A stretch of 61,877 bases of DNA, from positions 1 to 61,877 of the forward strand of contig JAILGH010000023.1 of NCBI GenBank assembly GCA_024697025.1. Reading direction: 5' to 3'. Below, one piece after another: positions 15,087 through 18,580 of this stretch; positions within the stretch are counted from its first letter, which is position 1; every line of letters starts with the position of its first letter. The notes beneath the pieces are model-generated. The model made no database searches and was not told where the DNA came from. It saw only the letters and a list, made by a program, of their open reading frames with translations. The DNA comes from Pseudobutyrivibrio sp. (GTDB lineage Bacteria; Bacillota; Clostridia; Lachnospirales; Lachnospiraceae). The position numbers and the translations under genes were made by a program.

Positions 15087-16592
15087 ATGAAGAAGAAATT
15101 ATCTTTACTACTTCTTGCAATAGTTTCTGCAATGTTATTAGGTTGCGGACAAAAGGCGGAAGAGACAGGCAAAATTGTTAAAACTATCGACGACTTAGAA
15201 GGTTCTAAAATCGGCGTGCAGCTTGGAACCATCGGCGACATCTATGCTTCAGATTATGAGGGTGATGAAGCCGGTACAACTATAGAGCGTTACAACAAAT
15301 TGGCTGATGCAATGCAGGCGTTAAGACAGGGCAAGATTGACTGCGTCATTGTTGACGAGCAGCCAGCTATTGCATGCACCAAAGGTGAAAAATCACTTGT
15401 GATTTTAGATGAGCCATTTACACTTGAGGATTATGCGATTTGCATTGCAAAGGACAACGAAGAGCTTTTGAACAAAGTAAATGGTGCTTTGGAAGAGCTT
15501 AAAGAGGATGGCACAATTGAGCAGATTACCGCCAACTACATTGGTGATGACACCAAGGGTACATGTCCTTATGTTACTCCAGAGGGTACAACCTATGATA
15601 GTGGCAAGCTGGTTGTTGCTACAAATGTAGCTTTTCCTCCTTATGAGTTCTATGACAAGGGCGAGCCTGTTGGTATCGATATGGAGCTTATTAAGGCAAT
15701 CGGTGACAAGATTGGTATGGATGTTGAGATTGAGGATATGGAGTTTGACAGTATCATCAATGCAGTAGATTCTCACAAGGCTGATCTTGGAATCGCTGGA
15801 ATGACAATGACTGAGGAGCGACTTAAGTCCATTAACTTCTCGGTACCTTATGTCACAACTAAGCAGGTTATAGTTTCAATAAATCCAGACGCCGAAGGCA
15901 GGGGCCTTGGATTGGTTGAGAACTTTAAGAGAAATTTCATAGATGACGATAGATGGCAGTACCTTGTAAAGGGCTTGGAGAACACAATTATTATTGCTGT
16001 TTGTGCAGTTTTTGCAGGTATGTTTATTGGATTCTTGGTTGCAATCGTCAGAGTTACTTTTGACAAGACAGGCAAGCTTTCTTTACTAAATAAAATATGT
16101 AAGCTGTATTTGGCAATCATTCGTGGAACGCCAATCATGATTCAGCTTTTGATAATTTTCTACGTAGTATTTAAGTCGGTTAATGTGCCAAAGCTTCTTG
16201 TAGCTATTATCGCATTTGCGATAAATTCAGGTGCTTATGTGGCAGAAATTATGCGTGGCGGAATCATGTCAATTGATGATGGTCAGATGGAGGCAGGACG
16301 AAGCCTTGGCCTTTCTTACCGTCAGACAATGGTTTCAATAATTTTGCCACAGGCAATTAAGAACGTGCTTCCAGCTCTTGCTAACGAGTTTATTTCTCTT
16401 ATCAAGGAGACATCAATCTGCGGATACATTGGTCTTATGGATTTGACTCGCGGTGGCGATATCATCAGAAGTATTACATACGAAGCACTATTACCACTTG
16501 TTGGCGTAGCAATAATCTATCTTATTATTGTTCAGCTTCTTAACTTAGGTGTTGGAAAGTTAGAAAAGAATCTTAGAAAGAGTGAGCAGTAA
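15087..16592 (+). CDS. Polar amino-acid ABC transporter, binding domain (permuted) fused to permease
   Basis: A 501-residue lipoprotein-permease fusion. Residues 1-20 are a lipoprotein signal ending in LLGC. Residues 33-153 match the C-terminal part of SBP_bac_3 proteins (IDDLEGSKIGVQLGT ... LEELKEDGTIEQI). A linker of about 19 residues follows, then residues 173-265 match the N-terminal part (KLVVATNVAFPPYEF ... FSVPYVTTKQVIV). The canonical order is the reverse. Residues 290-501 are a HisM/GlnP-type permease with the EAA loop (EAGRSLGLSYRQT). With the next gene it should import a polar amino acid such as glutamine; the exact substrate is inferred. Confidence 0.85.
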   Translation: MKKKLSLLLLAIVSAMLLGCGQKAEETGKIVKTIDDLEGSKIGVQLGTIGDIYASDYEGDEAGTTIERYNKLADAMQALRQGKIDCVIVDEQPAIACTKGEKSLVILDEPFTLEDYAICIAKDNEELLNKVNGALEELKEDGTIEQITANYIGDDTKGTCPYVTPEGTTYDSGKLVVATNVAFPPYEFYDKGEPVGIDMELIKAIGDKIGMDVEIEDMEFDSIINAVDSHKADLGIAGMTMTEERLKSINFSVPYVTTKQVIVSINPDAEGRGLGLVENFKRNFIDDDRWQYLVKGLENTIIIAVCAVFAGMFIGFLVAIVRVTFDKTGKLSLLNKICKLYLAIIRGTPIMIQLLIIFYVVFKSVNVPKLLVAIIAFAINSGAYVAEIMRGGIMSIDDGQMEAGRSLGLSYRQTMVSIILPQAIKNVLPALANEFISLIKETSICGYIGLMDLTRGGDIIRSITYEALLPLVGVAIIYLIIVQLLNLGVGKLEKNLRKSEQ

Positions 16593-16610: not shown

Positions 16611-17348
16611 ATGAGTAACGATATATTAATAAAAGTAGAAAACCTTTCAAAGTCATATGGGGATAACGAGGTTCTCTTAAATGTAAATATGCAAATTGAA
16701 AAGGGAGAGGTGATTGCCATTATCGGACCGTCTGGTTGTGGTAAGTCAACTTTTATTCGTACCCTTAATCAGCTTGAGGAGGTTACTTCTGGAACTATCT
16801 ATGTTGATGGTGAAGATATAACAAAGCCGGGAGTTGATTTGAATGATGTAAGACGTAGAGTGGGAATGGTTTTCCAGCATTTCAATTTGTTCCCTCATCT
16901 TACTATCAAGAAAAATCTCACACTTGCCCCTGTAAAGCAAAAGCTTATGACTCAAGAAGAGGCAAATAAAAAAGCAGAAGAGTTGCTTGAGAGAGTTGGA
17001 CTTGCAGATAAGGCTGATGCTTATCCAGACAGCCTTTCAGGTGGACAAAAGCAGCGAATTGCTATTGCACGTACACTTGCAATGAACCCAGAGGTGATTC
17101 TTTTTGACGAACCAACATCTGCACTTGACCCTGAAATGGTAGGAGAGGTTTTAGCTCTTATGAAGGAGCTTGCTGATGATGGAATGACTATGATTGTTGT
17201 AACTCATGAGATGGGCTTTGCAAAGGAAGTGGCAGATAGAGTTATGTTCTTTGATGAGAAGGGAATTCTTGAGGAAGGTACCCCTGCGGAGATATTTAAT
17301 TTCCCTAAGAGTCAGCGACTTCAGGATTTCTTGTCTAAGGTGCTCTAG
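16611..17348 (+). CDS. glnQ: Polar amino-acid ABC transporter ATP-binding protein
   Basis: A 245-residue ABC ATPase that energises the fused permease just upstream (18-nt gap). Walker A is GPSGCGKST, the Q loop follows in [10 protein letters not shown], the signature is LSGGQKQR, Walker B is [13 protein letters not shown], and the switch histidine is in VVTHEMGF. The PAAT-family features ([22 protein letters not shown]) place it with GlnQ/HisP-type ATPases. GGAG precedes the ATG. The gene symbol reflects family membership; glutamine specificity is not proven. Confidence 0.93.
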
Positions 17349-17410
17349 GCGTATTTCATTTTTCTCTTAAATTGATATAATAAGATTAAGTATTTTAGGA
17401 GATGAGAGAG

Positions 17411-18580
17411 ATGGAATCAACACTGAGAAGAACGTGGGCGGAGGTTAATCTTGACGCCATTGCCTACAATTACAAAAAGATTAAAGAAAAGACCGGCGAT
17501 AATGTAAAGTTTCTTGGAGTTGTAAAAGCGGATGCATACGGACATGGTAGTATTCAGGTTAGTCAGCTTTTAGAAGAAATCGGCGCAGATTATTTGGCAG
17601 TCAGCAGTGCCGACGAAGCATTAGAACTTAGAGTTAACGGCATCAAGATGCCGATACTTATATTAGGTCACACCCCAAAAGAGCAGGTTGAGCGACTTAT
17701 ACAATATGATATTACTCAAGCTGTTACTTGCAAGGCAAAGGCTGATGAGTATAGTGCTAAGGCAGTTGAATGTGGTGGCACACTTAAAATCCATATCAAG
17801 GTAGACACAGGAATGTCTCGTTTGGGGTACTTGTGTGACGATGGATATTTTGATACAGGTGTCGATGGAATTGTTGAGGCATGCAATATGCCGGGCCTTG
17901 AAGCCGAAGGTATATTCACTCACTTTGCTGTATCAGATGAGCATGGACCAGAATGTGAGAAATACACCAAGCATCAATTTGAGCTTTTTACTAATGTGAT
18001 TGAAGCAGTTGAAGAAAAGCTTGGTCGAAAGTTTAAGCTTAGACATTGCGCTAACACAGGTGCCGTTGCCAGATATCCTAAGACTTATCTAGATATGGTA
18101 AGACCTGGATTGTTGTTATATGGATATGGCGAGTTTGCCAAGGAGATGGGGCTTCGTCCAGCCATGACAATGAAGACAACAGTCAGCACAATCAAGATAT
18201 ATCCGGCAGGTACAGCCATTAGCTACGGCGGTATTTTTGTTACAGACAAGACCACTCGTATTGGCGTATTGCCTTATGGATATGCCGATGGATTTTTACG
18301 AAGCCTTTCCAACAAGTGTAGTCTTATTACCAAGGAAGGCCCTGCAAAGCTCAGAGGCAAGATATGCATGGATATGTGCATGATAGATATTACAGATATG
18401 CCTACTGTCGATGTTGGCAGTGAAGTAGAGATATTTGGAGAGAATAATGATATTGACCAGTTGGCTAATTTAGCTGGTACAATTCCCTATGAATTAACTT
18501 GTGCTGTTAGCAAGCGTGTTCCTAGAGTTTATTATTACAATGGCAAAGTCATCGACAAAGAGTTGATGCTTAGAATGTAA
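17411..18580 (+). CDS. alr: Alanine racemase
   Basis: A PLP-dependent racemase that makes D-alanine for peptidoglycan. The start is set at the ATG at 17411, 9 nt after AGGAG; the ATG at 17402 touches the ribosome site and is rejected, giving 389 residues. The PLP lysine is in VVKADAYGHG, the barrel contains KVDTGMSRLG, and the second catalytic tyrosine is in ISYGGIF. RPGLLLYGYG is also typical. It is followed after 5 nt by an EAL-domain gene, so the two are probably cotranscribed and translationally coupled. Confidence 0.96.
   Translation: MESTLRRTWAEVNLDAIAYNYKKIKEKTGDNVKFLGVVKADAYGHGSIQVSQLLEEIGADYLAVSSADEALELRVNGIKMPILILGHTPKEQVERLIQYDITQAVTCKAKADEYSAKAVECGGTLKIHIKVDTGMSRLGYLCDDGYFDTGVDGIVEACNMPGLEAEGIFTHFAVSDEHGPECEKYTKHQFELFTNVIEAVEEKLGRKFKLRHCANTGAVARYPKTYLDMVRPGLLLYGYGEFAKEMGLRPAMTMKTTVSTIKIYPAGTAISYGGIFVTDKTTRIGVLPYGYADGFLRSLSNKCSLITKEGPAKLRGKICMDMCMIDITDMPTVDVGSEVEIFGENNDIDQLANLAGTIPYELTCAVSKRVPRVYYYNGKVIDKELMLRM

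Follow-up and report, generated by a model that had tools for sequence, protein, structure and literature searches.

A predicted ABC importer with a circularly permuted SBP_bac_3 domain joined to its permease in Lachnospiraceae

The window analysed here, a whole stretch of 61,877 nucleotides of DNA from Pseudobutyrivibrio sp., a bacterium of the rumen/gut type, contains on its + strand a 501-aa open reading frame (15087..16592) that profile and PDB-sequence matches identify as an SBP_bac_3 binding protein (SBP) fused to an ABC permease. The alignments confirm that the SBP halves of this chain, the query, stand in circularly permuted order, the C-terminal half (C) before the N-terminal half (N), joined to the permease (P). 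The query very probably belongs to a type I ABC importer with a naturally permuted, single-flytrap binding domain (SBD), both termini of which would lie in lobe II; the substrate class is most likely polar amino acids. The permuted order is not peculiar to the query: permuted SBPs are common in Lachnospiraceae.

Results

Domain order of the query

In a Pfam search PF00497 matched the 501-aa ORF as two stretches (E 3.3e-36), the best of which aligns residues 175-264 with profile positions 1-91, and TIGR01096 aligned positions 121-250 of its 250 with residues 29-152, so that the C-terminal half sits N-terminally. In a phmmer search against the PDB, query residues 173-263 corresponded to 10-101 of the chain of 4zv1, the solved AncQR, and residues 30-153 to 108-232; the alignment with Thermotoga ArgBP (6svf) is reversed likewise. 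Because profile and solved-homologue alignments both run in reversed order, we conclude that the halves are swapped relative to the canonical N-half-then-C-half order of SBP_bac_3. Both halves are homologous to SBP_bac_3 (PF00497); of the five Pfam families matched at E 1 or better, no other is an SBP family.

The original prediction, made from the letters of the DNA alone, was of a single permuted SBP_bac_3 domain fused to an ABC permease, and the PF00497, TIGR01096 and 4zv1 alignments bear it out. The chain is not a tandem-domain GlnP, as had also been argued, since HMM domain order (C-N-P) gives each half once in the ORF. The ranges proposed for the halves, 33-153 and 173-265, were correct to within a few residues. 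The PF00497 domain search gave split hits, with canonical order of both halves not found, and segment 33-153 aligned to SBP_bac_3, with alignment to another family not found.

All features of the locus lie on the + strand. A signal peptide (15087..15146) carries, by its sequence, a lipobox-like LLGC at Cys20 of the 501-aa ORF, from which we presume a lipid anchor. The SBP C-terminal half ('S2'-like, residues 30-153, 15174..15545) carries T48 and D90. A linker that closes the ancestral termini (residues 154-172, 15546..15602) leads to the N-terminal half ('S1'-like, residues 173-265, 15603..15881), which carries R245. A short tether (about residues 266-275) and the permease's native N-terminal helical segment (to residue 290) together span 15882..15956, and the GlnP/ArtQ-type permease domain follows (15957..16589; PF00528 at residues 311-497, TIGR01726 at 291-391, best PDB match 4yms_D at E 5.9e-43). 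The next gene in the ORF list, for a GlnQ/ArtN-type ATPase (16611..17348), has a homologue after 56 of 59 permuted fusions, and an ATPase gene also comes next after 64 of 75 stand-alone permuted units. The layout is of the GlnP type, with an SBD ahead of an amino-acid permease in one chain and a GlnQ-type ATPase adjoining. By eye, a putative alanine racemase ORF (17402-18580 of the window) lies directly downstream of the ATPase gene.

Predicted fold

From 70 of the 81 available rows, AF2 predicts that the SBP halves of the query fold into one compact domain (residues 22-272, pLDDT 92.2, pTM 0.86); a structure prediction had been proposed at the outset as a check. With this model Foldseek, which aligns in chain order, retrieved 517 solved chains at E<=0.001. 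Its match to 4zv1 was confined to a single half (85 columns, 0.8 A, 52% identity, TMq 0.33), and that to the tandem 6h30 extended across 241 columns at 19.9 A, so that the close homologues appear to behave as expected for a permutant. Whole-length chain-order matches were to distant periplasmic-binding folds (9-16% identity, TM 0.4-0.6; 7v5v TMt 0.61), which we read as probable out-of-register superpositions of the lobes. The full-length AF2 model was weak (pLDDT 76.9, pTM 0.56), and for this reason nothing is drawn from it on docking or tether geometry.

Alternatively, the halves could be swapped between two chains on a homodimeric permease, each C-half pairing with the N-half of the partner chain, and no single chain would then make a permuted flytrap. 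One permease gene with one ATPase gene, as found here, suggests a homodimer with two SBPs, as is usual in the family, and the monomer prediction is also compatible with swapping between the two SBPs of such a dimer. In the C-N-C-N-P proteins L121 and L149 the middle N and C could pair canonically, and swapping is known in a relative, TmArgBP, which exchanges its C-terminal helix (PMC4022495). However, 75 permuted units have a stand-alone SBP, and the monomer model is confident with a linker of 17-19 residues. We therefore regard a swapped pair as unlikely and favour a flytrap made within a single chain.

Relatives and their architectures

A scan of genome contigs gave 201 relatives, and the best 80 of the 201 were kept. 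All 80 have the C-N order in an ORF, 35 of them fused to a permease and 45 unfused, so the order seen in the query is not due to chance. Most of these best 80 are named Lachnospiraceae, isolates included, of the genera Pseudobutyrivibrio, Butyrivibrio, Roseburia, Blautia, Kineothrix, Lachnospira and Agathobacter. Fused C-N chains occur in Butyrivibrio fibrisolvens 16/4, Pseudobutyrivibrio xylanivorans DSM 14809 and MZ8 and P. ruminis DSM 9787, and a stand-alone C-N SBP in Roseburia hominis An869. A survey of Lachnospiraceae homologues, also suggested at the outset, thus finds the same order in many relatives.

Contiguous C-N matches were rejected as sole proof of permutation, because canonical tandems, namely 6h30, L118, L152 and L253 (the last of which turned out to be N-C-N-C), give them too. 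With a 70-row profile 118 PDB sequences passed E 1e-5, and among the 60 matches listed of these the only best stretch that spans both halves was in 6h30, the SBD1-SBD2 tandem of GlnPQ. Domain order was instead read per ORF by HMM in 247 loci, which gave 248 permease units; the query itself served to collect this set, and certain loci in it overlap, such as L001 and L138, so the following counts are not frequencies. A canonical N-C SBP lies beside the permease in 88 units, a stand-alone permuted C-N SBP in 75 (57 of these SBPs with a lipobox-like motif), and a permuted fusion, C-N-P, was found in 59. Other cut sites (C-N-C) account for four units and C-N-C-N-P for two; the canonical fusions are N-C-P (two), N-C-N-C-P (one) and N-C-N-C-N-C-P (one); ten units are a permease alone, and six are partial or cut by a contig end.

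In the family sample 176 of 200 genomes matched at E<=1e-30. Units were taken from 119 such genomes: permuted SBPs, whatever their cut site, occur in 47 and canonical ones in 64, three genomes having both (paralogues counted), and 11 genomes have neither. In the phylum sample 297 of 398 genomes matched; outside the family, among the contiguous matches listed and checked, L141 is C-N, L149 is C-N-C-N-P, L147, L153 and L254 are C-N-C, L152 and L253 proved to be tandems of canonical order, and a contig end truncates L156/L257.

Several further architectures were observed. One 1149-aa chain (L121:1088-4534, genome G012) is a whole importer, C-N-C-N-P-A, with two permuted SBP domains, permease and ATPase, and the 900-aa L119 is C-N-P-A. 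Divergent permuted SBP-permease fusions comprise L119, L121-L124, L135, L136 and L149, with L255 and L256 placed there by architecture; genome G094 holds both the divergent type (L122) and the main type (L010). In L020:514-2970 (G112) two consecutive permuted SBP genes lie upstream of one permease. L118:1413-4331 (G195, 973 aa) has three canonical SBP domains in tandem and a permease of the same family.

Position of the cut

In TmArgBP, lobe I comprises residues 23-110 and 210-231 and lobe II residues 116-203, with connectors at 111-115 and 204-209 (PMC4022495), and the D1 construct is 20-114 plus 207-233 (PMC7589609). Numbering the query by alignment to TmArgBP (6ggv, residues 20-233), with an offset good to one or two, places the end of the N-half at about 118-123 and the start of the C-half at about 128. 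By this alignment both new termini are in lobe II, a few residues beyond the hinge. It had been proposed that the chain leaves the domain at the hinge; the exit is indeed near the hinge, but appears to lie a few residues past it, inside lobe II. With the cut there, both termini, and with them the lipid anchor and the permease tether, would move from lobe I to lobe II, and the membrane anchor seems to have shifted from one jaw of the binding domain to the other. As first proposed, an exit of this kind might alter how binding couples to transport.

The old lobe-I termini are closed by a linker of 17-19 residues (17 in the query by HMM borders). Between the N-half and the permease domain, fusions have 18-33 residues (median 19, n=63, HMM borders), part of which is the permease's own N-terminus, common to stand-alone relatives; by eye the added tether is about 8-10 residues. 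The SBD2-TMD linker of GlnPQ has 19 residues (PMC8025302) and would start from the other lobe than the query's tether.

Five relatives (L144, L147, L153, L219 and L254) are permuted at two further sites inside the C-half. L147, L153 and L254, all of family code f77, start some 30 positions inside the C-half and carry the missing 30 at their end; L219 and L144 follow the same pattern with the cut at about C-half position 62-73. By our reading of the alignment, both of these cuts also lie in lobe II, near TmArgBP 154 and 195. In the four other-cut SBPs inspected, a lipobox-like Cys comes just ahead of the cut. Of 250 family genomes searched for further SBPs with the L219 site, four have a match at E<=1e-62, and of these four matches only that of L219 itself is full-length and not a tandem.

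Ligand-site residues

Prokaryotic glutamate receptors have a carboxylate-binding residue in S1 and an Asp in S2 that binds the alpha-amino group (PMC2950845); in the alignments, R245 and D90 of the query match these alpha-carboxylate-binding and alpha-amino-binding residues. Conservation was counted over 227 SBP rows, identical rows having been removed. With the divergent clade set apart, all 121 site-A rows have Arg245, as do 4 of 4 other-cut rows, 10 of 10 divergent rows and 91 of 92 canonical rows. The corresponding counts are 121/121, 4/4, 7/10 and 91/92 for Asp90, and 121/121, 4/4, 4/10 and 83/92 for Thr48. The ligand site is thus less conserved in the divergent fused clade, which may therefore bind a different ligand.

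Evolutionary history

In a midpoint-rooted SBP tree of 65 rows the main permuted clade, which includes the query, has 24 rows (98/95) and stands beside 24 canonical rows, a 4-row site-A clade and L219 (98/95). Descent of every permuted SBP from one origin was rejected by the AU test (p 1.2e-7), as was one clade of the main and 4-row clades with L141 and L147 (p 1.2e-4); the groups tested were named after the first tree was seen, and some rows are long-branched. These rejections imply at least two origins, with three cut sites. The test did not reject joining the main and 4-row clades (p 0.38), adding to these two either the divergent fused clade (p 0.06) or L219 (p 0.07), or uniting L219 with L144 (p 0.16). 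By eye the linker of the 4-row clade resembles that of the main clade, which makes one origin of the two quite possible. Single-half trees rest on few columns, and in the N-half tree neither clade was recovered as one side of a branch.

In the permease tree the 24 main permuted permeases, 20 canonical ones and those of the 4-row clade and L219 form one clade (SH-aLRT 95), within which 23 of the 24 main ones share a branch with a single canonical row. For site-A rows outside the divergent clade, the fused and split states require four changes on the best tree, with three forced by the starred branches for the fused label; fusion or fission therefore occurred more than once. Most likely, as the relatives suggest, the fusion arose when the gene of a stand-alone permuted SBP was joined to that of the neighbouring permease. 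Fused units are more numerous among permuted than among canonical SBPs (23/52 vs 2/65, Fisher p 7e-8) in the family loci, a few of which overlap. The idea that permutation favours fusion was set aside, since independent tree pairs gave it no support (three starred pairs, median p 1) and the fetch leaned to the fused query.

An origin from a duplicated domain whose outer halves were lost, as first proposed, is possible. L118, with its three canonical domains ahead of a permease of this family, fits this route, but no intermediate was found among the relatives gathered. That the query is itself a decaying or non-functional remnant of a tandem GlnP without its outer halves is quite another matter. 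Canonical tandems fused to permeases do occur (N-C three times before P in L118, twice in L152). L118, however, groups with a canonical row and away from the permuted clade, and the permuted chains occur in many species with intact frames, invariant ligand residues and a conserved operon, which makes a remnant very improbable. An assembly artefact or mis-called frame, conceivable in a window from a 110-contig assembly, is virtually refuted by the C-N order in independent records, including isolates of Butyrivibrio, Pseudobutyrivibrio and Roseburia.

Discussion

We favour a functional importer built on a permuted flytrap. By homology and prediction, the two halves of one chain would form one ordinary two-lobed Venus flytrap. 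From the lobe borders published for the homologue, the lipidated N-terminus and the permease tether would both hold lobe II and leave lobe I free, whereas ordinary SBPs and GlnP would be held by lobe I. As in the family, ligand binding would close the flytrap, which would dock on a homodimeric permease carrying two SBPs, and the GlnQ-type ATPase would drive import. More tentatively, and with chances we put somewhat below even, permutation occurred repeatedly in Lachnospiraceae and other families of the phylum, at the three cut sites, all in lobe II, because it transfers the point of membrane anchoring, whether by lipid or by permease, to lobe II from lobe I. If so, the same permease family would serve a permuted importer and canonical SBPs.

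SBP_bac_3 is a widely used binding fold, found in biosensors, in GlnPQ and in kin of glutamate receptors. Related permeases paired across genera with canonical, permuted or permuted-fused SBPs offer a natural experiment on whether the choice of anchored lobe makes a difference, and the evolved cut sites and linkers a resource for sensor design. In profile searches permuted SBPs show up as no more than split hits, which makes them easy to miss in annotation. Among the papers listed in a light search of the open-licence literature, no description of a permuted SBP_bac_3 protein was found.

A permuted SBP was known before in another fold, and the nearest described precedent found is Tp0684 (MglB-2) of Treponema pallidum, classed as 'Type Ic / Cluster Bc' (PMC4990184). 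Like the query it is a natural circular permutant of an ABC-importer SBP and a tethered lipoprotein; Cluster Bc homologues occur in Gram-positives, and anchoring has been suggested as a possible driver (PMC4990184). Unlike the query, Tp0684 has the sugar-binding Type I/Cluster B fold and not SBP_bac_3, and its cut differs, with N-lobe strands moved to the C-terminus and a fourth cross-over (PMC4990184). The query does not have that fold, PF00497 being its only SBP family, and its permease fusion has no counterpart described for Tp0684 in the excerpt available (PMC4990184). GlnPQ of Lactococcus lactis (SBD1-SBD2-TMD) likewise joins its SBDs to the permease in a single chain, with GlnQ as partner, but carries two canonical N-C domains in tandem, where the query has one C-N domain (PMC8025302); the adjacent C1-N2 halves of that tandem (6h30) mimic a permutant in searches. 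The permease of 4yms is homologous to that of the query, and 4zv1 and TmArgBP are homologous to both SBP halves, with ligand residues kept; unlike in the query, the order is canonical. 4yms is the Art(QN)2 homodimer, whose SBP is a separate protein.

The ligand-binding domain of ionotropic glutamate receptors (GluR0) consists of S1 and S2, the same halves as the query's. In the receptors S1 and S2 flank membrane helices (PMC2950845). In receptor and query alike, the chain thus passes from S1 to the membrane at roughly the same point. The receptor's exits to the membrane leave from lobe II. PF10613, which covers the receptor S1 region, aligned positions 56-110 of its 115 with query residues 208-263 at 27.1 of 30 bits, below the Pfam cut-off, and this sub-cut-off match ends about where the query's N-half ends. 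The receptor runs S1-channel-S2 with a pore loop, whereas the query runs S2-linker-S1-permease and has no pore; the Pfam search found no channel family in the query beyond the PF10613 match, and the permease follows S1. The receptor likeness of the query is confined to topology. If the proposed anchoring is correct, the permuted importers would be tethered by lobe II like ionotropic glutamate receptors, and the anchored and the moving jaws would have exchanged roles.
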